A stretch of 64,000 nt of DNA from Vampirovibrionales bacterium (GCA_029262635.1 JAJCZA010000002.1:1-64000), one strand, 5' to 3'; counted from the stretch's first letter, positions 31,747 through 61,864 are shown. Program-made: numbers and translations. Notes: generated from the sequence alone by a model not told the origin.

Positions 31747-32760
31747 TTAAGCTGTTTTCTCTGATTTTGATTTTGTGGGCGCTTTTTTCTGATTCTCACC
31801 AATGAAAGCTTCTTTCTCTTCATCGCTTATATTCAAACCAGGCAATTGGTCCACCACTTTATCGACAAATCCTTTTTCCAGTGATTCCGCCGATTCCATC
31901 CAATAGTCCCGTTCCATGATGATATCAATCTCCTCTTGGGGAACCTTGGTCACTTTGGCAAAAAATTCATTGATCTGCCGCTTATACCGCATTATTTGCT
32001 TATATCTGATTTCAATATCTGTCGCCTGACCCGAAGCTCCACCGAGCGGTTGGTGAATCATAATTTCCGCTTTCTTCGACATACTGCGATGCCCTGGCGT
32101 GCCGTTTGCTGTGATGACAGAAGCCGCACTAGCCGCATACCCTTGAACATAGGTTGCGATGGGAATATTTTTTCCATCAATTTTCGTTGCCTTCACCTGA
32201 TCCATAGAGTCTATAATGCTATTCATGGCTAAAATAGAACCGCCCGGGCTATTAATCAGGAAATTAATGGGCTGAACCTTTCCTGTCTTTTTCATAATGC
32301 CTTCTAAAATATTCACGCGCTCCTGGACCATTTCTGCCATTTGATCCGTTACGGGACCCGAAATCTTAACGATGCCGTTTTTAATCAAAATTTGTTGTAA
32401 CTGGCTTAGCTTTTTATGAGAGGGTTTTTCGGCATTGGAAATCGTATTTTGGAATTGAGCTAGCGTGGTATTAAAATGAGACTCAAATAAAGAGTTTCCC
32501 CAAGAGTAGGGGCGTGCACTGGCCTCTTCGTATTGCGTGGTAAATTCAGGATTAATCAGCAATGGCGTGCCTACGTAATTCGGGTTTCGGGCACCAAATT
32601 GAACAGGCTTGACACCAAAGTAAGCGCCATTAAGTAACGGGCTCTTTTCTGCCGTTTGTTGTCGTACGTCTGGAATTGACTGAGAATCTTTTATTTTATT
32701 TTGCATACCCGCAAAGCGTTGGGTATTCTGAGTATAAGGGTTTAAATTTAAAATATTCAT
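31747..32760 (-). CDS. clpP: ClpP-family serine protease with a 115-residue tagged N-terminal extension
   Basis: 337 residues; ClpP is usually about 200. The protease domain (about 125-325) has all catalytic parts: INSPGGSILAMNSIIDSM, S211 in QGYAASAASVITANG, H236 in AEIMIHQPLGG and D285 in MERDYWM. The extension is Asn/Gln-rich and holds YFGVKPVQFGARNP at 47-60, matching leaders of PrkA-B and the 158-residue protein. It is the last gene of the minus operon, 30 nt after PrkA-A. A dedicated ClpP beside AAA+ PrkA proteins suggests a proteolytic partnership, which is inference; no ClpX or ClpA gene is nearby. SppA/TepA-like peptidases are the alternative. Confidence 0.85.
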   Translation of the reverse strand: MNILNLNPYTQNTQRFAGMQNKIKDSQSIPDVRQQTAEKSPLLNGAYFGVKPVQFGARNPNYVGTPLLINPEFTTQYEEASARPYSWGNSLFESHFNTTLAQFQNTISNAEKPSHKKLSQLQQILIKNGIVKISGPVTDQMAEMVQERVNILEGIMKKTGKVQPINFLINSPGGSILAMNSIIDSMDQVKATKIDGKNIPIATYVQGYAASAASVITANGTPGHRSMSKKAEIMIHQPLGGASGQATDIEIRYKQIMRYKRQINEFFAKVTKVPQEEIDIIMERDYWMESAESLEKGFVDKVVDQLPGLNISDEEKEAFIGENQKKAPTKSKSEKTA

Positions 32761-32790
32761 TGAGGATCCTCACCTTGTATGATTGTTAAT

Positions 32791-35616
32791 TTATCGACGT
32801 TGACCACGAACTGTGAGTTTGTACGATGGCTTCTTTGTAGTTAAATTAATTGGCTTCTTTGAGTCATCTTTACGGCCTTTTTGCTGTAGCCACTCCATGT
32901 ATTCTTTGTCTCGGGTAAACGCAAAATCCAGCATTTTGGGTAATGTTTTATCGGTATAACCATCGTCTCGATTTTTAAGATTATCGAGTGTCTCCTTCAA
33001 GCGGGTTAGGCGCTCTCGATTAATTTCATGTTTTTTGAGTACTCGATCTTGCTGTTTATATTCAAAATATTTTTCAACATCTGTAATAAAATGCTCTAGT
33101 TTTTCTCGTGTATCATTAACATCTTTCTGCACCATTTTTTCAAAGAACGATTCAAAAATAATGGCCAAATTCTCATCAGTCATGGGTGATTCACTTGGAT
33201 TCCGAGTGGCCCAACTGCCTAAATCACGAATAATTTTGTTTCTAAATTCATCCACTTTTACGTTTTCGGGCTTCAGTAATTTCTCAACCTGAGCCATATA
33301 GTTCTCGTTGGGCCCGTCCTTAATTGCGGGGTCACGATATTCGGATTGAACCGTCCCCTTTTGCACATGAGCTTTAATATGGGCCAGGTACTTCCGTAAG
33401 TTATTTAGGTGTTCAGATTGTGGTTTTAAGAGCTTTAAAGCCGAATGTACATCCGACCGAATGCGCATTCGCATAAAGTTTTTAACTTGGTCTAAGGCAT
33501 CTTCTGGAGGCTGGTAAGTGGTGGGTAGGTTAATTGAAATCGTTTGGCCTTTAGATTCGGCCTGTTTAATTGCGTCTGAAGCGGCTTCAGCATATCTCTT
33601 GCGTTTTTCAGCGTATTCGATACTGTTTTTAATGTGCGCTTCCAGCTCATCAAAAAGTTCTAATAATGTAAAATCTTCTTTCTTATTTCGTACTGCGGCC
33701 TCTTCTAAAACATCCCAGGCTTCACGAGGTGAAATGCCGCTTCCCCCTTCATAAAACATAAATTTATGACGCCCGACTCCTATGTTATATTCATCGGCAA
33801 TGCTTTCCAGGTAAAGCTTTAGTACTTTCTCCTCCTCGGAGTTAAATTTTATTTCTGCTGGTCGTAAAGCGTATAAATCTAATGGCTGGCCCTGATACAA
33901 TAACGCCTTATGTAAAATTTCTGTTTTAAGTTTTTTAATGGCACCATCCAGGATGGGCTGATGGTCGTCATGGACCCCGTCATAAACCGTTGTCTCTGGG
34001 GGCATCAAATAAGTCATGGTTGTCCATAAGCCAAACGCATCCAAAACATGAGGGCCAATAGTTCGCTTTCCTTCTTTAGGGAACAAGGCTTTAAGTCGGT
34101 CTCGGTAAATATTGGCCGCTGCTTTGTATCGACGAACATAGCCCACGGGAATAAACGATACCCGTTCCTTTAAAGAGCCCCAATTGCTAAATTGCTTATC
34201 CAGTAAGTCAATGTCTGAATCATTGGTTGTTGCCCAAAGAGTCAGGTCCAGAAACTCTTCTACATTGGCCAGATTCAATTTACTTTTTTCCGCAACGCGT
34301 AACATGTCCAGGCTGGCTTGACCTTTCCACTTATCGTCATACATTAGGTGACCCCGATTCGCTTCAGCCAGAGGCCCATGTAAACGAACCAGTCCGGCTG
34401 TTCTAAAGGCTTCGGCAATGCCGTCGGGTAGTTTATTCCATTCAATATCCGACGTAATGGCTTCAATCTGAGCGTCCCTTGTCTGGGCTTCCGGCACAAT
34501 CACCAATCCTTGCCGGCTTTGCTGAGAAAGGGTTAGTCGTTCTACTTGAACATGTTTTAAGAGCTTAGAGGTATCGCCATCGTAATAGCGCATCAGGGCA
34601 TTATAAATTTTCTTCGAGCTACTATCCAATCGGCCTTTAATAATAAAATCCTGATTAAATGTATGATTGATTTTGCCATCCTCTTCCAGGGCGTCAATCA
34701 ACTGGATTCGTTGTTCTTCAGGCAGAAGAAAAATTGGATTCGTGTTTAAATTGGCCGGAATAATGACGGACACGTCGTCTGCATTAGAAGATTGTTCTTC
34801 GTCCAACTTTGGATTTTCAGCCTCTTCTGTTGTCACTGGCATTTCATACCCAAAGTCTAACCCGAGGTCATCCAGTAAATCTTTTTTGAAAACCCAGCTA
34901 AAACGGTAAACAGCTCCTTCCGGCTCTTTTGAGTATTGCTCCAGTGCCTCAAATAGGGTTTCAATCAAATGGGTTTTTCCCGTTGCGTTAGGGCCATGGA
35001 GAACAATCATTCGAGTTGGGTGCGCTTTTTGAGCGTTTTTTTTGAGGATTTTGTAAATGTCGTAAATAGGCAATTCCTGCCCTTCAACACCGGTTTTATC
35101 TGATAGTCCCTTGGGTAGCCAGGGTTTTTTCGCAAAATCAAATGGAATAACTTTTCGGCCTAGGATTTCAACCTTCTTGGCAAACCCTCGATTGCCAAAA
35201 GAATAAAAATCTCGATCTCGCTCGCTTTTTTCTGACTCTGTATCACTGTCATCGATCTCTGCTGGTAAGGTTTGGAAGTTAAAGTATTCAATGGCATCGA
35301 CCGTGTATTGACTGGAGTTTCTTAAATACTTATCGGGGTCTTGAAAGACATCATTCAGATATTCTGTAAAAGAAAGAACTTCTCGGGAGCTTTTAAATCG
35401 TGTTTTTTCAGCAGTTTCCAGGTTTTTTAAAATATCATTCGCCCCAGAAAAATGAATGCCTTTATATTGCTGAAGTAGTTCCGGCGATATCTTTTGTTCG
35501 TTGTGACTCCCCTCAACGTTACGGTGAATAGCCGAGTCTGAACGGAAGCTCTTCTCGTTCAAAACTCCCGAAAACAATGGAGGTTTAACCCTTGTACCTA
35601 TTGTATCCACTATCAT
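32791..35616 (-). CDS. prkA: PrkA-family AAA+ protein, long divergent paralogue (PrkA-A)
   Basis: 941 residues; PrkA/YeaG is usually about 640. The PrkA opening motif SFTEYLNDVFQDPDKYLRNS is at 82-101, an acidic insert (about 121-140) follows, and Walker A GPNATGKT is at 208-215. Later parts match the PrkA motor and C-terminal domains only loosely. PrkA proteins are described as serine kinases and, in Bacillus, as an ATP-dependent protease. The leader holds IHFSGAN at 54-60, close to IHFSAAT of the divergent ligase. The ATG overlaps the yeaH stop by 4 nt. A second PrkA lies at 39000-41333. Confidence 0.85.
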   Translation of the reverse strand: MIVDTIGTRVKPPLFSGVLNEKSFRSDSAIHRNVEGSHNEQKISPELLQQYKGIHFSGANDILKNLETAEKTRFKSSREVLSFTEYLNDVFQDPDKYLRNSSQYTVDAIEYFNFQTLPAEIDDSDTESEKSERDRDFYSFGNRGFAKKVEILGRKVIPFDFAKKPWLPKGLSDKTGVEGQELPIYDIYKILKKNAQKAHPTRMIVLHGPNATGKTHLIETLFEALEQYSKEPEGAVYRFSWVFKKDLLDDLGLDFGYEMPVTTEEAENPKLDEEQSSNADDVSVIIPANLNTNPIFLLPEEQRIQLIDALEEDGKINHTFNQDFIIKGRLDSSSKKIYNALMRYYDGDTSKLLKHVQVERLTLSQQSRQGLVIVPEAQTRDAQIEAITSDIEWNKLPDGIAEAFRTAGLVRLHGPLAEANRGHLMYDDKWKGQASLDMLRVAEKSKLNLANVEEFLDLTLWATTNDSDIDLLDKQFSNWGSLKERVSFIPVGYVRRYKAAANIYRDRLKALFPKEGKRTIGPHVLDAFGLWTTMTYLMPPETTVYDGVHDDHQPILDGAIKKLKTEILHKALLYQGQPLDLYALRPAEIKFNSEEEKVLKLYLESIADEYNIGVGRHKFMFYEGGSGISPREAWDVLEEAAVRNKKEDFTLLELFDELEAHIKNSIEYAEKRKRYAEAASDAIKQAESKGQTISINLPTTYQPPEDALDQVKNFMRMRIRSDVHSALKLLKPQSEHLNNLRKYLAHIKAHVQKGTVQSEYRDPAIKDGPNENYMAQVEKLLKPENVKVDEFRNKIIRDLGSWATRNPSESPMTDENLAIIFESFFEKMVQKDVNDTREKLEHFITDVEKYFEYKQQDRVLKKHEINRERLTRLKETLDNLKNRDDGYTDKTLPKMLDFAFTRDKEYMEWLQQKGRKDDSKKPINLTTKKPSYKLTVRGQRR

Positions 35617-36956
35617 CCGTTAGCCCCTTCACGTTCGCTCAGCATTTCATAAACCGCCATCTTATACTCGTCCGGCTCATGAGCTTCGATATCTGAAATT
35701 CTCACTTTGTTATGGTTCCGGCCATAATTTTCTTCAAGGAAGTCTTTAAATTGACCACTTCCAAAAGAGGATGTTGTTTGTATGTAGCCAATGGAGTTGA
35801 CTTGAGGTAGCAGGCGCTCAATAATTTCATTCGTTTTCTTATTGTCATTTCCCCAGTTATCCCCATCACTGTAGTGATAAATATAAATATTGTAATCGGC
35901 TGGGTTATATCGTTTTTTAATCAACTCTTCAACCTTGGCGTATCCTGATGAAATAACCGTTCCGCCGCCTTGTGATGTGGTATAAAACTCTTCTTCACTC
36001 ACCTCATGTGCCTTCGTGTCATGGGCAATAAAAACTTCCTCAACCCCATCGCCAAAACTGTCATCAGTTGCCAGCTCCCCACGCAGGTCAGCATTGATCT
36101 CACCAAATTGCTGGCCAATAATGGTGGATAGATACCAGCTTGCGGTTCGAGCCATCTGTTTTTGCTCGTCTCCCATAGAACCCGAAACATCCATCACGTA
36201 GAAAATCACCGCATTATGCTGGGGGAGTTCGTCGGTTTCCCAGGTAATATAGCGAACATCCTCTGGATGAATAACCACATCCGAAGGTTTAACATGGTCT
36301 TTTTCACTAGACGTTCGTTGGATGGCTTGCAACAACGTTGCAAGCCGATCGACCATAGAGCCGACCTGACTGATATCGGTCCATTTGATCGATTTTTCAA
36401 TGACATTCGCATTGCCCTTCGGTAAGAGGTTCGGTAATTTCAAATCGTCCATGATCAACTGGGCAATTTCACTACGGGAAATCTCGATGCCTGATGACTC
36501 TTTGTTATGATCGCCTGGGTCTTTGCCGGCTTCACCCTTTCCTTCACCGGGTTTCGGCTCCCCGTTTTCGTCGATCTCGCCAATGCTATCCCCGGGTTCT
36601 CCTTCACCGGACCCCACACCGCCGCCGCCGCTTGCGCTTCCTCGGCGAAACGAAGGGATTTTAATATTGGGCTTTGGGATTTTAATGGCTTTTCCGCCTC
36701 GGACGGTTTCAAAATGATCAGGGCTGATAAATTTTTTCAGGTCTTCCCGAACCTTTCCTTTGACAATCTTTTTAAAGCGTTCGTGATCGACGTCAACGCC
36801 AAATTTAAGGGAAGCGGCAACCTTCACCCCACCCTTGTCATAAAGGCTGGCTCGTTGGATGGGCTGAACAGAAGGCGTTGAGTCCTCTTTTTTCTGCCTT
36901 GCTCTTGAGTTTCGAAGCGAGGAGGCTCGATTGTATTGAAAATTTATTATTTCCAT
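35613..36956 (-). CDS. yeaH: YeaH-type DUF444 protein with von Willebrand factor A fold
   Basis: 447 residues from ATG 36956; GTG 36962 is also possible. The C-terminal half has the MIDAS motif in YVMDVSGSMGDEQKQMA and the DUF444 hallmark YHYSDGDNWGNDN. Residues about 105-155 form a Gly/Glu-rich linker. YeaH works with PrkA/YeaG in nitrogen-starvation and stress responses of enterobacteria; its biochemical role is unknown, but VWA proteins commonly partner AAA+ ATPases. The leader has SLKFGVDV near residue 49. The gene overlaps spoVR by about 10 nt and prkA-A by 4 nt. Confidence 0.93.
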   Translation of the reverse strand: MEIINFQYNRASSLRNSRARQKKEDSTPSVQPIQRASLYDKGGVKVAASLKFGVDVDHERFKKIVKGKVREDLKKFISPDHFETVRGGKAIKIPKPNIKIPSFRRGSASGGGGVGSGEGEPGDSIGEIDENGEPKPGEGKGEAGKDPGDHNKESSGIEISRSEIAQLIMDDLKLPNLLPKGNANVIEKSIKWTDISQVGSMVDRLATLLQAIQRTSSEKDHVKPSDVVIHPEDVRYITWETDELPQHNAVIFYVMDVSGSMGDEQKQMARTASWYLSTIIGQQFGEINADLRGELATDDSFGDGVEEVFIAHDTKAHEVSEEEFYTTSQGGGTVISSGYAKVEELIKKRYNPADYNIYIYHYSDGDNWGNDNKKTNEIIERLLPQVNSIGYIQTTSSFGSGQFKDFLEENYGRNHNKVRISDIEAHEPDEYKMAVYEMLSEREGANG

Positions 36957-38935
36957 AACCACTTTCTACCCCACTGTTCAAGGGACTCTTCAATTTCCTT
37001 TAACTTCGATTCCATCAGTTTTCCTCGTGCATCTCCAGAACCTATTTCTTTACCGGATTCATTTAAAACGTGGTAATCCACCACCGATTTTCCGGCTTGT
37101 TTTGATGCGGTCAAGCGTAATTTAATTCTCACTTTTTGGTTTAAAATAGTCCTCAGCTCTTTTTCACTTTCGTTTGGTAATGAAGCTAGGTAATCAGGGC
37201 TACTTAAGATTCGAATGTAAACATCCGGGATTTTATCTTTAAAATTAATATCCTGATAAGTATCCAAGTGAACTTTACGCCCCCAAAAGCTTTGGGCATT
37301 TTTCAACGTGTTCTCTGCATCACCCCAGTCTAAATCATACCGGTGGGTATGATTTAGCAACAGTTCCCCTGCGTTATTAAAATTACCATCAACAACCTTA
37401 ATTAAAGGTTGTCCCCCGTTTTCAAGCATTTCTAATAAACGGGTCTTGGTTTCTTTGACCTCACGGCTGGACACTTTAATCTGTTGTCGTTTCGTATAAA
37501 AATCAGGAACACTGGGATCCCAGGTATACATCTTGATTTCTTCGGCGACCTCATCATTAAAAAACTCGTTAATAAATGACGAATCCGTATGATACTTCCG
37601 AACATCAAAGATTTTTTCCATTCCCTTGCCTTCATGGGTATTGTAATTTTTCTTTTCTTCTCTATCTTTAATGCTTTCAAATACACGGCCATGACGACCT
37701 TTATCCCACCGGTCTAAAATGTTTCGGAACATGGCTACACCCAACTGATAAGGGTTTAGTTGGTGTGGATTACCGGCGACAACGCCGCCTGCCATTTTTG
37801 AAATCTGACTGGCATGTTGATGATCCACCAGTGCGGGCGTATGTAACATTAGTTTTTCATGCCAGAATGATGCCCAGCCTTCGTTCATAATTTTTGTTTT
37901 CATCTGGGGGGCAAAGTAATAACTTTCCTTGCGGACAATACTGAGAACATCCCGTTGCCAAGGTTTGAGAATGGGTGAGTTTTCAATGATAAAAGCCATT
38001 ACGTCTGCTTCAGGCTCTGTCGGGTTTTGATGAGTTTGTTTATCCAGCCGCTTTTGCTCTTTAGCTCGCTCCTGGGTCAAACGCTTCGGGCTATTGATTC
38101 GTTTCCGGATGTGGGCTGGATAACCCCTATCATCAATGACCCCAAAATCCTTGGCCACTTCAGGCGGATTCTCCAGCTGTTGAGAGCGATACTGAAGGGG
38201 TCTGGGCTTGTCAACACTTAAATCAATCAACCATTGCAAAGACATGGCGTGTTCAAGCGTGTTTTCCATTGCCAGAAACGACACATTCTCTTCGGTGTCC
38301 AGTATTTTTTTGATGGTACTGGCATTGGTGCCCATTTCTTCCATCATGTTTCGATTGGTATGTTGGAAGGCAATATTATGTTTAAAGAAGTCCGTATGTC
38401 CATACACATGTGCCATGACTAGCTTCTGAGCATACAAGGGATTTTCGTTCAACATGTAGGCATAGGAAGGGTTTGTATTAATTACTAGTTCATAAAGTTG
38501 TGAATGCCCATGTTTCTGAGGTAATAATAGATCCTGATAAGCTTGCCCAAAAGACCAATGACGGAATCGTACCGGAAATCCTGTACGTGCTGTGGTTGAA
38601 ATCAAAGTATCTCGATCCATACCGACCCAGCGTACGGGGAAGGGATCTAACCCTTCTTTTTTCGCAACGTCCCAGATTTTTTCAGCCCACATGGCGAGCA
38701 CCGGATCGGTTTTGCCATTAATTTCATAATGACGACCCTGCCCGGTAATCCGTGAGCCGAATAGAAGGTCAGAGTTCACACCAAAGGGCCGTGTTGTTTT
38801 AGCGTTTAGCGCTCCTGCATCTTGCTCAACTCGATTTAAAGTCGCAGATATTTTATTTTGAGGTTCTTTTTCCTTCAAAGAGGAGAGCTGGAGCCTCTCC
38901 TTTGAAGTGTCCAAAGCAATCAATGAATGAATCAT
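36947..38935 (-). CDS. spoVR: SpoVR/YcgB family protein
   Basis: 662 residues. Family motifs are clear: VMAHVYGHTDFFKHNIAFQH, HTNRNMMEEM, IMNEGWASFWHEKLM and LNPYQLGVAMFRNI. SpoVR acts in spore cortex formation in Bacillus and is co-encoded with PrkA and YeaH in many non-sporulating bacteria; its reaction is unknown. The His/Glu-rich motifs suggest metal binding. The SpoVR domain starts near residue 68, after a leader ending in PFGVNSDLLFGSRITGQG. AAAGGAG is 11-12 nt before the ATG. It follows PrkA-B by 64 nt. Confidence 0.95.
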   Translation of the reverse strand: MIHSLIALDTSKERLQLSSLKEKEPQNKISATLNRVEQDAGALNAKTTRPFGVNSDLLFGSRITGQGRHYEINGKTDPVLAMWAEKIWDVAKKEGLDPFPVRWVGMDRDTLISTTARTGFPVRFRHWSFGQAYQDLLLPQKHGHSQLYELVINTNPSYAYMLNENPLYAQKLVMAHVYGHTDFFKHNIAFQHTNRNMMEEMGTNASTIKKILDTEENVSFLAMENTLEHAMSLQWLIDLSVDKPRPLQYRSQQLENPPEVAKDFGVIDDRGYPAHIRKRINSPKRLTQERAKEQKRLDKQTHQNPTEPEADVMAFIIENSPILKPWQRDVLSIVRKESYYFAPQMKTKIMNEGWASFWHEKLMLHTPALVDHQHASQISKMAGGVVAGNPHQLNPYQLGVAMFRNILDRWDKGRHGRVFESIKDREEKKNYNTHEGKGMEKIFDVRKYHTDSSFINEFFNDEVAEEIKMYTWDPSVPDFYTKRQQIKVSSREVKETKTRLLEMLENGGQPLIKVVDGNFNNAGELLLNHTHRYDLDWGDAENTLKNAQSFWGRKVHLDTYQDINFKDKIPDVYIRILSSPDYLASLPNESEKELRTILNQKVRIKLRLTASKQAGKSVVDYHVLNESGKEIGSGDARGKLMESKLKEIEESLEQWGRKWLWK

Positions 38936-38999
38936 TTGAACAATGTCTCCTTTGCTTCTTTGAGTTCACTAATCTTTTTTAAGCAGTGACCCCTAAGGA

Positions 39000-41333
39000 T
39001 TAATCGCCAAATGAGCCTTTATATTTTGGATCGTTGATCAGCTTCATCGCAATCTCGGCACTGTGTTCGTTATAGCCAAAATCTGTTATTAAACGTGTTT
39101 TAATGACATCAATTTTTTCCTGATCTTCTCGGGTTGCGTGCTCGCGTTGACCGATAACCGGAAAACTAATATCCGAGAATTTGGAAATCAGGTGCTCTTC
39201 CAAAGCATTCTGTAGAGTTTGATCATCCAGATATGTAAACGGGGTACCTTCCTGAGTTTTGATGCCTGCCATGGCCATCAATTTATGCCGGTTCTCGCCC
39301 CGGCTTGCATCGGTCCACCCCATGCGGTCTTCAATGGCAGTCATAAACCCTTCGTCTGGATCTCTGAGTCGTCCTGTCGATTCGTCTTTGACTCTTTCTT
39401 TTAAATACCAGGCATTCAGGTGCTTGATGTATTTATCGAAAAGATGTTTCACATCTTCTTCGTCTCCGGCCAAAGCGTGGTTCACATCTTTAATCATCCG
39501 ACGGGCCACTTCCATTTCAACATCCTCAAGAAGCCCATCAAACGAATCTCGCTCTTCCTTATTCAGGTTTGAAACACCACCTGTTCCCAATTGCTTTCGT
39601 AAACTGTCAATCACCAGAAAGGGATCAACCGTTCGAGTCCCTTCTTTGGCGTCTGTAACCGAGGGATGAATTAAAGCATTTGAGAGCGCATCCTGAATAT
39701 CCCTTGGAGAAACGCCACTCAAAAGTTCACTGGCTTCATCCGGTACGTCTTTTTTGAGCTGAGTCACCTTTTGTTTGGTGTAATCTTTAATTTGCTCGCC
39801 ATTATAAAGCAATGCTTTCTGTAATAAGCTTAAGTCAACTGGTGGGGCCGCTAACCGAGTCATGACTGCCCAAAGCGCCGCCGTAAAGGTCGAGTGAGGT
39901 GCGACATGTATATCCTGTTTTTTCGCATTATTCACAAACCCTTTCTTATAAATGCCTTCCTCATCATCGATACGGCTATTATAAGGAACCTCAATCTGGA
40001 TAATTCGGCTACGAATGGCTTCCAGATGCTTATCTGCTTTTGTTTTGGTCCAGTCTGGAATATTGGTTGTACCAATGAGCATGCCGTCATAACTAATCAT
40101 GGGGAACTTATCGGCCTTAATGGCTTTCTGTTCCGAGGCTGAAAGCAATGGGTAAAGCAGTGATTTTGGAATTTTCAACAACTCATCAAAGTGGCCAAGA
40201 CCTCGGTTACCCTGAGGTAATTCACCATCATAGCTAAAAGCATGAACATCACTATCGCTGCCTCGTTGCATCAGCTTCTTTAGGTTCACTTCACCGGTTA
40301 GGTGGCCTCGCCGTAAGCTCTTTTCATCAGCCGGTTCAAACGTGGTAATCCCATCTCGAGCCGCTTCGTTCAAGGCGAAACGTTTGGCCTTCGCATGTTT
40401 CAGAACCTTGCTAAAGTCCCCTTCGTAATGAACCATCAATCGTTTATAGATATCTTCTGATGTGGGGCTGAGCTTGCCTCGAGAACTTAAAGAATAAGGT
40501 GAAAGCTGACCGGTTTCTTTTTTATGGGCTGACTTTAACTGTAAATTTAAAGCTTCAACCACTTGTTCACGAGGGCTTGTCGCATTGGGGTCACTTTTTT
40601 CATTCGAGACCAATAAGAACGGATCCTCATGCATGGGTGAATCAATGATCGCATCTAAATCTTCAAACGCTTCAACACCAGCTTTTTTAAGCGAAGTTAA
40701 GTCCCACTGTAGGGAATACATGGCTCCCTGATCCGTTTTGGTGTATTGCTCCAGTCCTCGTTTTAATACATTAACCATCGTAGTTTTAGCGGTTCCAACA
40801 GGTCCCACTAAAAGGATAATTCGTTTTTCCGGGCCACTTTCTGCGGCCGCCCCGCCAATGGCGTCAACAAACTCATGGATAGACTGTTCCATCCCGGAAA
40901 TCGTATCGTCTTTTACCAGAGGGTCTTTGAAAAAATCATAAACGTAAAGCTGTTTTCCGTCGACTTCGACCAGTTTACGGCCCTTTTCCATGATCATATC
41001 GTAAGCCCGTTGGGCTGACGTCCGGATTAGTTTTGGGCTGTCATAAACCTCTTTGAGATAATCATCAAAGCTAATGACCTGCGCTTCTTTTGCGTAATGT
41101 GCCGGATCCACAGAGGTTTTTAAGATGTCTTGAATGGCAGAAAACGCATTTGAGGGTTCCGATGGTTTTGCACCAAAATAAACTTGGCTAAGCGCCGGGG
41201 AGATCATCGTTTTTTTGGTTTCGGACAAGGCAATGTCTGGAGTATCGGCCTTACTTTTCAAATTATTTTGGTGATTTATCGGAGCCGTCCGCTGTGGATT
41301 AGCTCCCCCCTTTAAGTATTGAATAGAACTCAC
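39000..41333 (-). CDS. prkA: PrkA-family AAA+ protein kinase/protease, canonical paralogue (PrkA-B)
   Basis: 777 residues from GTG 41333, with GGGGAG about 10 nt upstream. Motifs run in family order: SFDDYLKEVYDSPKLIRTSA (89-108), Walker A GPVGTAKT (177-184), RGLGHFDELLKIPKSLLYPL and YDGMLIGTTNIPDW. It is longer than YeaG because of a 60-residue leader and a longer C-terminal part. The leader holds VYFGAKPSEP at 51-60, nearly the same as YFGVKP in ClpP. It is the first gene of the operon. The paralogues differ in length and Walker A, so a hetero-oligomer or different targets are possible. Confidence 0.92.
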   Translation of the reverse strand: MSSIQYLKGGANPQRTAPINHQNNLKSKADTPDIALSETKKTMISPALSQVYFGAKPSEPSNAFSAIQDILKTSVDPAHYAKEAQVISFDDYLKEVYDSPKLIRTSAQRAYDMIMEKGRKLVEVDGKQLYVYDFFKDPLVKDDTISGMEQSIHEFVDAIGGAAAESGPEKRIILLVGPVGTAKTTMVNVLKRGLEQYTKTDQGAMYSLQWDLTSLKKAGVEAFEDLDAIIDSPMHEDPFLLVSNEKSDPNATSPREQVVEALNLQLKSAHKKETGQLSPYSLSSRGKLSPTSEDIYKRLMVHYEGDFSKVLKHAKAKRFALNEAARDGITTFEPADEKSLRRGHLTGEVNLKKLMQRGSDSDVHAFSYDGELPQGNRGLGHFDELLKIPKSLLYPLLSASEQKAIKADKFPMISYDGMLIGTTNIPDWTKTKADKHLEAIRSRIIQIEVPYNSRIDDEEGIYKKGFVNNAKKQDIHVAPHSTFTAALWAVMTRLAAPPVDLSLLQKALLYNGEQIKDYTKQKVTQLKKDVPDEASELLSGVSPRDIQDALSNALIHPSVTDAKEGTRTVDPFLVIDSLRKQLGTGGVSNLNKEERDSFDGLLEDVEMEVARRMIKDVNHALAGDEEDVKHLFDKYIKHLNAWYLKERVKDESTGRLRDPDEGFMTAIEDRMGWTDASRGENRHKLMAMAGIKTQEGTPFTYLDDQTLQNALEEHLISKFSDISFPVIGQREHATREDQEKIDVIKTRLITDFGYNEHSAEIAMKLINDPKYKGSFGD

Positions 41334-41774
41334 GATGTTCAGCTCCCCATTTATTTTCTACCATCTTCAAATCAAGCAATCTTATTCAATCCTCACTAAT
41401 GTTGAATAAGAACTTGTGTATAAGTGAACCTGTCGACAGAATAAAAACTGGGTTCACCTCAAAAACAAATTGAATTTATCCCCTCAACATGTCTTTGAAC
41501 CTTGCTGAAACTACATGAAATAATGGCGTCTTGCAAGTGTTTTTTACTCTATACAAATTTTAATTCTTAGTTGTAATAAAATATAAAAACAATCAAAAAA
41601 TAAGCTTAAACCTTTTCTCTGCCATTACTTTGGCATGATGTATTATTTAAAAAACACGAGGCCATGATCAATAAGGTCACTAGACGTAAAAAACAATCAT
41701 CTAAATATTTGGTTACATCCTGTTCTTGCTTCATTTTTAATCGGTGTGGTTTATTACTCAATTGTGGTGCATCA
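41334..41774 (-). promoter_or_regulatory. Long leader of the PrkA operon with nested inverted repeats
   Basis: No gene is credible here. Upstream of PrkA-B lie CTTATTCAA / TTGAATAAG (41381-41389, 41402-41410), GTGAACC / GGTTCAC (41424-41430, 41451-41457), and the perfect 10-bp palindrome CTGTCGACAG (41430-41439). These could be operator half-sites or leader RNA structure. No convincing -10/-35 pair was found. Confidence 0.4.
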
Positions 41775-41801
41775 AAAAAGGTGCTCGAAAGGCACCTTTT
41801 T
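41775..41801 (-). terminator. Terminator after the 158-residue tagged protein gene
   Basis: Stem AAAAAGGTGC and GCACCTTTTT with 7-nt loop, about 30 nt beyond the stop at 41832. It separates that gene from the PrkA operon, so the two are transcribed independently. It could act in both directions. Confidence 0.8.
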
Positions 41802-41831
41802 GTTCTTGCAAATAAACGGCTTCAGGGAGAG

Positions 41832-42305
41832 TTATGCTTTTTCATCCAAAATGTGTTGTGGGGCCGCTAGGTCGGAGTTGGTTGTATAGCCAACGGACTT
41901 TCCTTGAGCGACTCGGTTTTCGACAAATTGGACATCGGTTGCTATCGTGTCCGCCGCTTCCATCGTATTCTGTTCCAGGGTTGGCAAAAAGATAAAATCA
42001 AGGCCCTGCTGAATTAGTGTTCTCACCGCTGCAACATCGGCTTTTGGATCATTGCTCTGAACGGTTTGAGCCTGTACAAAGTGCTTTTCTTGATAGTTTG
42101 AAAAGGGTAACGTTCCTTCTTTCCAAACCTTTTCACCGCCCAGTTTTGTAATAAGATTTCCTGCTGTAATTGAATCCGAATCGTCAGGACGCTCCTCTTG
42201 AGCACCGGGTTGAACGACGGTTGAGGGAGGTGGTTGCAGTTGATCTTTTTTAATTAGAATTCGTCCCTTAAACTGTACCGGAGACGGTATTATCGTTGTC
42301 ATCAT
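41832..42305 (-). CDS. Small hypothetical protein with VQFKGR leader motif
   Basis: About 158 residues starting MMTTIIPSPVQFKGRILIKK. The frame is open to 42320, but that ATG overlaps the Shine-Dalgarno GAGGT, so the ATG pair at 42305/42302 is used. The middle is Pro/Gln-rich; the C-terminal 90 residues are probably folded (DVAAVRTLIQQGLDFIFLPT). PVQFKGR closely matches PVQFGAR of the ClpP extension. No signal peptide, membrane span or known domain is seen. It has its own terminator and is divergent from the AMP-ligase gene. Confidence 0.65.
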   Translation of the reverse strand: MMTTIIPSPVQFKGRILIKKDQLQPPPSTVVQPGAQEERPDDSDSITAGNLITKLGGEKVWKEGTLPFSNYQEKHFVQAQTVQSNDPKADVAAVRTLIQQGLDFIFLPTLEQNTMEAADTIATDVQFVENRVAQGKSVGYTTNSDLAAPQHILDEKA

Positions 42306-42666
42306 ATAAAAATACCTCACTTTTTTGAAAAAACATCATCTATAGAAACAATCTTCTTTTAGCCTACTAAGAATAGTAAACACGAAATAAAATACTTGTA
42401 AACGTTCAATAGGGGATGAACGAGTAGTGACTTTTCAAGTTGTATATAAAAATTTGTTTTACATGTGTTATTGAAAATAAGTGTGGGTTCTGTTTAAACT
42501 GTTGATTAAAATAAATGCGCTCTGCTAAAAGGGCGTGAAGGTAAACGGCCCATTATTGATTAATTTATTAGGACAGAGTATAAATCGTTTAATAACTGGG
42601 CTTTAGGGGTTTAGAAAATTATCGGGATGAAAATAGTCAAGTTTTATTAACGAAGGGTTTTTTGTT
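42306..42666. other. Divergent intergenic region without a recognisable gene
   Basis: AT-rich, 361 bp, between the 158-residue protein gene and the ligase gene. It must hold promoters in both directions, but I could not identify a convincing pair. GAAGGG lies about 11 nt before the ligase ATG. Confidence 0.5.
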
Positions 42667-44814
42667 ATGGGGATACACGTGCCAACTAATTTGACTTCTA
42701 GAACGAGGCCACAATCAGCTTTTTTAAAAACAGGAGCAACACCAGCCTTGCCGCAACCTTGCTTTCAGTCAAAGGCCGTGTTATCGGATTCAAAGGCTTT
42801 TCTCTTTCAGAATCCACGTCCACCCCTTATCCACTTTTCTGCCGCCACCCCGACCACTTATACTCACCCGAAAGAGAACGATTTTATCGCTCGGTTAAAA
42901 ACACTGGCCACCAACCCGGCAACAAAAGACTTATCCGCTGTTAAAGTCAGTCGATCCTTTTCGGCTTCGGGCGAAGAAAAAGCCTTGACGTTTGCAGAGC
43001 TTTACGAAAGTGTCAAAAAAGCCAATCAGGGTATGCGCTCACTCGGTCTACAGTCCGGCGACCGCATTGCCATTGCTGAAACCAACACGCCTGAATTTAT
43101 TACCCACTATTTAGCAGGACTGTCTCTTGGGGCGACCATGGTGCCGATTAATTTACTGGCTATGCAAGACGAATCCGATAAAGTCAATAAGTTAATCTAC
43201 ATGCTAGAGAAGCCTAACGCCAAAGCGCTTTATATTGGTGCGGATCCACTTTTTAAAGACATGGCAGAAATGGGCACCATCCAAAAAATGCAACCTCTTC
43301 GAAAATTGCTTGGCCCTATGATTGAACGCTATGTTGATAATAGGGCCACTAAAATTTTTGTCATCGAATCCCTGTTCCGAAAGGTGATTGAGCGAAAGAT
43401 CCAAACCGCTTTAAATAAACAAATCAAAGTGTCCAAAGCCGCAGGCCATGAATTAACGAAGGAACAACAAGAAACGTTTCTTACTCAAAAACGTAAAAAT
43501 TTTCAAACCATTTTTGAACAACTTCCACTCAAGATAAAACTTGTTACTCCTCAACAACAAGTTAAACTCCGCCAACTTGGTCCCTCGGAAAATAGATACA
43601 TATTGGAACATCCTGCGCCTCAATCCACGGCAGATATTCTTTATACCTCTGGTACCTCTGGAAACCCCAAAGGTGTGAATTTGACTCATCAAAACCTGGT
43701 TTTTACTGTCAACTCGATTGCTGAGGGGACCCGCTCACTGATCACAAAAGACGATGTAACTCTGATGGCCCTGCCCTTGTTTCATATTTTTGGTAAGGCG
43801 GTCTTTTTCAGTTTACTTAATCAGCCCAGTCCTATTGTCTTTTTGCCCTCTCTTAAAAAGGCAATTAGCCACCTAGATAAAGTAGTTGAAACCATTGAAG
43901 AACACCAGGTTACAATCTTACCCACGGTTCCTATATTTGTAACCAAACTCCTGAGGCATCTGGAAGAACACCCAGAAGATCGGTCCCGCGTTCAGTCGCT
44001 CAAGCGCATTATTAGTGGTGGCGCACCTCTCAAACAGGACACCTTTGAGAAGCTACAACAGTTGATTCCGGGAATTGAAATCAATGAGGGCTACGGATCG
44101 TCTGAAGGCGGCATTAACGCGCTAAACCTGGAAGGCACCGCTGGCTTTGTTGGAACCCCCCTGCCTGGCGTTGAAGCAAAACTTGGAAAAAGTGACGAAC
44201 TCCTTGTTCGCTCACCCGGTGTCGCCTCTCATTATATTCAGGGTACCGTTCCAGATGATGAGTTAGCTTTGAAGGATGATGATGGTTGGTATCACACAGG
44301 CGATGTGGTTAAAAAAGAACCTAAAACCAACATGTTTCAAATCGTGGACCGCCTGAATGAGACATTTAAGCATTTAGGAGAACTCCGTTCCCACGCTGAT
44401 ATTGAAGAAGGGGTTAAAATGACCGGGCTTGTTAACGATGTGATGAATGTAACCTATCTTTACGACCGGGAACATGAACCCTTCCGGGTTGCCATTGTGG
44501 TCACTCCAGACTCCTCTGTTGATGAAGCAGGTATCTTAGCCGCTATGAATAACTTGCATGGAGCCGGAAGAATTAGTCATTGGCGTATTCCAGATCACGT
44601 TTTGGTGCTTCACCAAAAAGAGTTGCCCGATGGTTTTGATGGCTTTAAGCGTCTTTATAAAGTGGGGCGAGATTTCCTGGAGCAAGCACGGGAACAAGGT
44701 ATCGTCACGTTCACCCATGAAGTTAACAGCAGGGGGTGGCTTGAAGGTAAAACAACCGTCAATCAAGAGGCATTGGACGCTTTTGGAAAAAGTTACCGGT
44801 GGCAACCCGAGTAA
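42667..44814 (+). CDS. AMP-dependent synthetase/ligase, acyl-CoA-synthetase-like, with tagged leader
   Basis: 715 residues. After a 65-residue leader with LIHFSAATP at 54-62, adenylation-domain motifs appear in order: ILYTSGTSGNPKGVNLTHQN (A3), INEGYGSSEGGINAL (A5), DGWYHTGDVVKKEP (A7) and FQIVDRLNETFKHLGEL (A8-like). Residues about 235-320 contain a charged helical insert before A3. I do not see the usual A10 Pro-x5-Gly-Lys motif, so CoA or other acyl transfer is uncertain. Substrate is likely a fatty or other carboxylic acid. It is convergent with the next gene and divergent from the small tagged protein. Confidence 0.82.
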   Translation: MGIHVPTNLTSRTRPQSAFLKTGATPALPQPCFQSKAVLSDSKAFLFQNPRPPLIHFSAATPTTYTHPKENDFIARLKTLATNPATKDLSAVKVSRSFSASGEEKALTFAELYESVKKANQGMRSLGLQSGDRIAIAETNTPEFITHYLAGLSLGATMVPINLLAMQDESDKVNKLIYMLEKPNAKALYIGADPLFKDMAEMGTIQKMQPLRKLLGPMIERYVDNRATKIFVIESLFRKVIERKIQTALNKQIKVSKAAGHELTKEQQETFLTQKRKNFQTIFEQLPLKIKLVTPQQQVKLRQLGPSENRYILEHPAPQSTADILYTSGTSGNPKGVNLTHQNLVFTVNSIAEGTRSLITKDDVTLMALPLFHIFGKAVFFSLLNQPSPIVFLPSLKKAISHLDKVVETIEEHQVTILPTVPIFVTKLLRHLEEHPEDRSRVQSLKRIISGGAPLKQDTFEKLQQLIPGIEINEGYGSSEGGINALNLEGTAGFVGTPLPGVEAKLGKSDELLVRSPGVASHYIQGTVPDDELALKDDDGWYHTGDVVKKEPKTNMFQIVDRLNETFKHLGELRSHADIEEGVKMTGLVNDVMNVTYLYDREHEPFRVAIVVTPDSSVDEAGILAAMNNLHGAGRISHWRIPDHVLVLHQKELPDGFDGFKRLYKVGRDFLEQAREQGIVTFTHEVNSRGWLEGKTTVNQEALDAFGKSYRWQPE

Positions 44815-61567: not shown

Positions 61568-61864
61568 CTAGCCAAAAAGAACGCCTGCCTTTAATAACCG
61601 TTGTCGACGCTCTAAATCTTTTTTTCGTCGTGTCTCAAGGGATTCTTGCCATGCTGACGTATATTCGTAATTGATATCATTTTCAATCTTTCGCTGAACA
61701 ATTTCTTTTTCCTGTTGTTGAACAGCAATTAACTCTTGTGGTGTCATATCAGGACGAACCCGATTAGCAAGTCCAAGTAAAGCTTCGCTGCCTTGTTGTG
61801 AGCGAAATTGTGAATCGCTAATGCGAGCGGATAGTCCAAAACTGTTGGGATTGAAAGAAACCAT
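61568..61864 (-). CDS. Small hypothetical helical protein within the element scar
   Basis: 98 residues (MVSFNPNSFGLSARISDSQF), followed by a charged helix rich in Glu, Gln, Arg and Lys (RRKKDLERRQRLLKAG). No known domain. The N-terminal SFGLSAR loosely recalls the FG leaders of the PrkA region, but it is too near the start to be sure. It lies between the tRNA-Pro repeat copies. Only a weak GGA precedes the ATG. Confidence 0.5.
   Translation of the reverse strand: MVSFNPNSFGLSARISDSQFRSQQGSEALLGLANRVRPDMTPQELIAVQQQEKEIVQRKIENDINYEYTSAWQESLETRRKKDLERRQRLLKAGVLFG

Follow-up and report, generated by a model that had tools for sequence, protein, structure and literature searches.

Substrates of type III secretion systems typically carry disordered, polar N-termini, disordered N-terminal motifs are frequent degrons, and eukaryotic partners of protein phosphatase 1 dock by strand addition through their RVxF motif. 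A stress module of PrkA, YeaH, and SpoVR has been described, represented by YeaG/YeaH/YcgB in enterobacteria and by PrkA of Bacillus (PMC13001217), and a VirB-type type IV secretion system (T4SS) has been described in Vampirovibrio chlorellavorus (PMC4451040). Genes of the stress module are located between positions 31747 and 44814 of the window studied here, i.e., the whole stretch of 64,000 nucleotides analyzed, representing the start of contig 2 (C2) of a 2.99 Mb draft genome (labeled G000) of the order Vampirovibrionales (non-photosynthetic Cyanobacteriota). An earlier note, made from the sequence alone, had suggested that seven neighboring proteins encoded there share an aromatic–glycine motif in their N-terminal leaders. 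This motif, termed the phenylalanine–glycine (FG) tag, has the proposed core [PVIL]-x-F-[GSA], in which F is frequently preceded by R, H, Q, or K, and is considered here, with moderate confidence, to be a lineage-specific, N-terminal, short linear docking motif, probably cytoplasmic, for one common putative receptor.

N-terminal enrichment of the FG tag

The sample comprised approximately 0.75 Mb of G000, corresponding to 549 predicted genes, and stretches from twelve other genomes of the class, among them G026 (family of G000), G052 (another family of the same order), and G008 (family f2). Two families, f1 and f3, bear the tag; families f2, f4, f6, and f8 were used for comparison. The core was counted with the pattern [PVIL][RHQKNTSY]F[GSA] or its stricter form [PVI][RHQ]F[GS], and the counts were compared with composition-preserving shuffles within the leaders, leaving out the window and its operon. 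In the polar N-termini of G000, 39 motifs were counted versus 14.5 ± 3.7 in the shuffles, and the stricter form was found 22 times versus 3.5 (p = 1.4e-7). Within the same proteins, polar segments at internal positions showed no excess (42 versus 37). Higher counts than in the shuffles were likewise obtained for G026 (17 versus 7.2), G052 (3 versus 0.6), and G014 (4 versus 1.3), and no N-terminal excess was detected in G008 or in genomes of f4, f6, and f8. Per 1000 residues, the motif density was about 2 at positions 1–60 and 0.7–0.8 beyond position 165, both in G000 and in the pooled f1/f3 relatives, and 0.68 in the last 60 residues of G000 proteins; other members of the class outside f1/f3 had no N-terminal bias in density. 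The bias was gone when F was swapped for Y, L, I, or M, and also when the residue after F was swapped for D/E or L/V/I.

In unsupervised expectation maximization (EM), run with 125 polar leaders, [VPI][RHQ]F[GS] ranked first, its log-likelihood being 161 as compared with 127, 126, and 144 for the best motifs of three shuffled sets; polar leaders had been selected before motif discovery because EM over unfiltered N-termini gave only hydrophobic helices. A first class-wide alignment contained no stretch conserved enough as a search query. A position weight matrix trained without the window gave good scores for PVQFGARN (9.4), PPLFSGVL (7.9), and PVQFKGRI (7.7) and weak ones for IHFSAAT (5.7) and VYFGAKP (5.4), and the SpoVR and YeaH motifs were missed. 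Due to these uneven scores, a high-scoring false positive in an ABC-transporter ATPase (VRRFGENI, with RRFGEN), and the absence of enrichment in G026 at high cut-offs, the matrix is an unreliable caller for single proteins.

The earlier note had treated the motif as a local label of seven neighbors, a view that did not stand since the motif was found genome-wide, with two copies in many leaders. Its cross-protein matches were nevertheless beyond chance: all quoted peptides were found in the seven proteins at the positions given, and when the scores of the three best 7-mer pairs were added up, the total was higher than in all 150 shuffles of these N-termini and than in about 99% of randomly drawn sets of seven polar-headed G000 proteins. 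Neither shuffled sequences nor the leaders of close relatives, the two comparisons by which the note proposed to judge the motif, spoke against it.

Tagged proteins in G000 and its relatives include a helicase, a beta-oxidation enzyme, an adenosine deaminase, a methyltransferase, a hydrolase, ankyrin, MTP18-like, and metalloprotease-like proteins, and many unannotated ones. Their genes are clustered, with 7 adjacent pairs versus 1.3 expected (without the window). Three neighboring membrane proteins (L063) carry IRFGN, LSFGE, and LRFGS; five neighboring genes (L068) encode PRFGS, PHFGS, IRFGQ, VHFGD, and IRFGE; a 2-oxoglutarate (2OG) oxygenase (L071) has VHFSG; and PQFSG was found ahead of a signal-peptide-like stretch in L049. 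The five adjoining genes of L068 (135-5623; G000:C2:440135-445623) are alike in make-up, possibly representing winged-helix paralogues, and adjoin a gene for a tagged protein with a HELGH metalloprotease-like motif. The MTP18-like protein (L067, 16643-17443; G000:C2:376643-377443) is a tagged protein of 266 residues matching the eukaryotic mitochondrial MTP18 family (PF10558, E 4e-9), and its relatives in the class are only scattered. In family f6, one protein (genome G004, L087 16937-) has the tag-like start FCPQFTGFIPAKQYKG.

AlphaFold2 models of two proteins from the window, a ClpP-like protease and an AMP-binding ligase, were calculated from shallow alignments (five rows for the ligase). 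The leaders reached a predicted local distance difference test score (pLDDT) of about 25–45, and the ClpP domain was modeled at normal confidence; residues 1–70 of ClpP and 1–67 of the ligase were thus predicted to be disordered. Low leader pLDDT is a sign of disorder and not its proof. A reading as Sec/Tat signals was not supported, since any strongly hydrophobic 19-residue stretch was detected in 18% of tagged versus 33% of untagged proteins.

Retention in orthologues and the seven window proteins

Comparison of orthologues revealed that the motif is retained where the surrounding leader is not. In a second, distant ClpP-like family, four species carry IHFSGAKL, LRFGGAKL, LRFGKTTL, and VRFGETM, with F invariant although the leaders are otherwise unalignable. 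At the aligned position of the second PrkA protein (PrkA-B), VYFGAKP of G000 corresponds to VYFGIGR, VYFASSV, VYFGGVN, and LHFAGVN in four other Vampirovibrionales. Ligase orthologues showed VHFTA and PRFGQ, IRFAA, IPFGA and LRFSG, or IFFKG. The F and G codons of the motif vary synonymously, which argues for selection on the protein; accordingly, an RNA-level function of the leader is disfavored. None of 13 housekeeping ClpPs and none of 16 paralogous AMP-ligases of these genomes carried the motif. For the DSHCT helicase, G026 has a tagged version and G000 and G014 have versions without a tag, which marks the tag as modular; judging from such comparisons, some families have kept it, and others have gained or lost it. 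A third ClpP-like protein (L003 1096-2921; G000:C23 near 177.4 kb) has IHFSGAK, a core as in IHFSGAN of the first PrkA protein (PrkA-A), and its gene adjoins that of a tagged small protein with the start KSIRFQGAPS.

The gene run prkA-B, spoVR, yeaH, prkA-A, and clpP is present in G000, G026, and G052; in G037, it occurs as well, but clpP is missing. The leaders of the operon proteins differ between these four genomes, yet nearly all have F-G motifs; in family f8, the leaders of the operon are without them. The earlier statement that known relatives lack such leaders therefore applies to the housekeeping ClpPs and other AMP-ligases, which have none, and fails for the f8 homologues, whose leaders are polar and of similar length. 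In the window (31747-41333), the run extends the PrkA-YeaH-SpoVR module by a ClpP-like gene and a second PrkA, an arrangement kept in G026, G052, and G045 (f8).

The genes from clpP to the orphan described below, and their motif sites, are on the minus strand. The accessory ClpP-like protease (337 residues, 31747..32760) possesses an N-terminal extension of approximately 115 residues ahead of its Pfam CLP_protease domain (residues 118–305, E 1e-45). Its double motif YFGVKPVQFGAR (residues 47–58, 32587..32622) is composed of YFGVKP (47–52) and PVQFGAR (52–58); the orthologues in G026 and G052 feature VVFAG/PKFG and VVFG/PQFQG/IRFG, respectively. PrkA-A (941 residues, 32791..35616) is a divergent PrkA-type AAA+ ATPase (Pfam PrkA E 3e-16, AAA_PrkA E 2e-8) with PLFSG at residues 13–17 (35566..35580) and IHFSGAN at residues 54–60 (35437..35457), the latter position being occupied by YTGIRFGSTDD in the G052 orthologue. 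PrkA-B (777 residues, 39000..41333; AAA_PrkA E 4e-60, PrkA E 3e-49) carries its VYFGAKP at residues 51–57 (41163..41183), including YFGAKP at 52–57. The seven proteins had been called non-homologous; since PrkA-A and PrkA-B match both Pfam AAA_PrkA and PrkA and are homologous to each other, only six families are represented.

The YeaH protein (DUF444, E 6e-69; 449 residues, 35613..36962) has SLKFGV at residues 51–56 (36795..36812). This site had been counted as a tag, but provides no evidence for one, because it represents the DUF444 domain start, at which SLKFGVDVDHERF of YeaH aligns with LAFGVDPDFDRF and LLFDSVSDPDLQRY of untagged f8 species. SpoVR (662 residues, 36947..38935; Pfam SpoVR E 3e-104) carries LLFGSR at residues 57–62 (38750..38767), preceded by RPFGV, and its orthologues have ASHFG/FFAG, LKFSG, or VQFSA and IRFG. 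The orphan protein of about 160 residues (41832..42320), for which no Pfam family was matched, features PVQFKGR at residues 14–20 (42261..42281); a 160-residue protein starting with SRLPQFGSHVLINRG is encoded upstream of PrkA-B in G026 (L011/L077). The AMP-binding ligase (715 residues, 42667..44814, plus strand; Pfam AMP-binding E 2e-56) is divergent from the minus-strand run and has IHFSAAT at residues 55–61 (42829..42849, plus strand). Elsewhere in the window (61568-61864, minus strand), an open reading frame of 98 residues starts with MVSFNPNSFGLSAR and ends with GVLFG, possibly encoding a further tagged small protein.

Proposed docking and its alternatives

The motif, its N-terminal bias, the predicted disorder, the retention in two families, the absence from paralogues, and the occurrence on unrelated folds are the observations from which docking is proposed. 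N-terminal enrichment, orthologue retention, and untagged paralogues bear out that part of the earlier proposal which called the motif a shared sorting or docking tag; its assignment to one stress-related assembly was not borne out, as the same motif is found on many unrelated proteins in G000 and relatives. The tag would reside in a disordered leader of about 10–70 residues, frequently doubled, ahead of the folded domain. The spacing between V/I and F would suit a short strand inserted in a receptor groove by strand addition, and a single common putative receptor would gather otherwise unrelated accessory proteins at one place, the probable outcome being co-localization rather than export or turnover. 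Cytoplasmic docking is the best-supported reading; soluble as well as membrane proteins of unrelated folds are tagged, sometimes ahead of a Sec-type signal and often doubly, always near the N-terminus. More tentatively, approximately 5% of Vampirovibrionales proteins may carry the FG tag as a proteome-wide address to one lineage-specific structure or receptor.

Several points weigh against docking. No receptor was found for the FG tag, its short core is degenerate, and no more than about 5% of the sampled proteins account for the excess. Outside the operon, the signal is weak in G002 (9 versus 5.0, p = 0.08) and G037 (6 versus 3.9, p = 0.22, not significant). Gene starts were set mechanically at the most upstream start codon, the pattern was defined in part after data inspection, and some samples are small. 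Furthermore, the F-G site of YeaH, and perhaps also part of the ClpP leader, runs into the domain start. As a partner, an FG-repeat scaffold was considered and rejected: the low-complexity protein of L066 (10225-11436, G000:C2) consists of (GFGAPQ)n followed by long (GNA)n repeats, and it is not a conserved scaffold because the similarly laid-out proteins of relatives contain MPPQ or QYGPPQ repeats instead.

Among the alternatives, the one surviving best, itself considered unlikely, is that the leader serves as the export signal of a second flagellar-type type III system, the tagged proteins being substrates or effectors delivered to a eukaryotic host or prey organism, for example an alga. Matches to the FlhA/SctV family and to FliF/YscJ-type proteins were found in 18 of 18 Vampirovibrionales genomes searched, with at least two FlhA-type matches in 17 of 18 and two FliF-type matches also in 17 of 18. 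In almost all genomes of the order, the second set represents a second flagellar-type export apparatus or a second flagellum. The leaders resemble the disordered, polar N-termini typical of type III substrates, and accessory or eukaryote-like proteins (ankyrin repeats, MTP18-like, 2OG oxygenase, metalloprotease-like, hydrolase) are among those tagged; in outgroup samples, 0 of 27 tagged proteins were matched, as compared with 54 of 467 (p = 0.06). However, the second export gate was also detected in family f2 (one genome, G008), where no tag excess exists, so that the tag distribution does not follow the export apparatus. Moreover, the second FliF-type protein is full length, in contrast to injectisome SctJ, a Sec-type signal or membrane helix follows the tag in several proteins (L049 10241-, L132 4194-, and the L063 trio), and ClpP, PrkA, the DSHCT helicase, and the beta-oxidation enzyme are improbable effectors. 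G000 itself has two FHIPEP and two FliF/YscJ-type genes; the second FlhA/SctV-type gene and the second full-length FliF-type gene are located at G000:C22:80726-87553, besides the main flagellar set.

Encapsulin cargo was rejected for G000, since PF04454 is absent from G000 and the tag-bearing G052 and present only in G026 and G070. A VirB-type T4SS signal is disfavored: PF03743 gave only weak, sub-threshold matches in G000 (95.9% complete), G026, and G052, and was above the cut-off only in genus g5. The contractile injection tube protein PF06841 had no match in any genome, controls included.

Slightly less likely than export is a cis-acting motif for the folding or regulation of its own protein, the likeness resulting from convergence of F/G-containing polar leaders near domain starts. 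This would suit YeaH, whose motif is a domain start common to untagged relatives, and several families in which the motif lies shortly ahead of the domain. The F-specific excess over composition-preserving shuffles in unrelated folds and small proteins argues against it, as do paralogues of the same fold without the tag and the disorder of the motif in the AlphaFold models of ClpP and the ligase, calculated from shallow alignments. About equally unlikely is a signal for regulated degradation or for processing, acting as degron or cleavage site and read by a lineage-specific adaptor; the tagged ClpP-like proteases and PrkA ATPases would then belong to the machinery. The presence of the tag on two PrkA AAA+ proteins and in two distinct ClpP-like families would agree with it, as would the common use of disordered N-terminal motifs as degrons; but the proteases themselves are tagged, and the varying distance between motif and domain and the frequent doubling suit a single cleavage site poorly. 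Least probable, and already disfavored, is chance or artefact, i.e., a degenerate pattern on over-long, mechanically called N-termini, which the short low-information core, the mechanical starts of the reading frames, and the partly post hoc pattern would favor, and against which stand the shuffle, body-segment, substitution, and outgroup controls, orthologue retention across families, synonymous codon variation, and purine-rich stretches upstream of several annotated starts.

Should about one in twenty proteins of a bacterial order be marked by a single motif, finding its receptor would reveal a new form of bacterial protein organization, export, or disposal, in the lineage to which the algal predator Vampirovibrio belongs. 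In addition, partners of the PrkA-SpoVR-YeaH module, which is poorly understood, could be sought with the FG tag, both as a ready bait and as a simple key for searches.

Comparison with known systems

N-terminal tags as such are already known, and the FG tag matches no testable known family of them. Literature searches gave no account of such a motif in this lineage, which is weak negative evidence, as openly licensed papers only were covered. Like the cargo peptides of encapsulins and bacterial microcompartments, the FG tag is a short motif on a flexible tail of different enzymes that may be gathered at one place; unlike encapsulin cargo peptides, it forms no amphipathic helix and is not C-terminal, and PF04454 is lacking in G000 and G052. 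With type III or flagellar export signals and the leaders of injection devices, it has in common that unrelated proteins start with a disordered, polar leader. To our knowledge, however, type III and flagellar signals have no conserved F-G consensus, and, unlike them, the FG tag also occurs before Sec-type signals and on enzymes that are likely of housekeeping type. RVxF-type motifs resemble it in their degenerate hydrophobic-x-F core, their location in disordered regions, and their many unrelated partners, whereas the FG tag is N-terminal, has no upstream basic requirement, and features G or S after F. Finally, four of the seven window genes correspond to the PrkA-YeaH-SpoVR stress module; unlike the module elsewhere, the run in the window adds a second PrkA, a ClpP-like gene, and FG-tag leaders, and the tag reaches far beyond this module.

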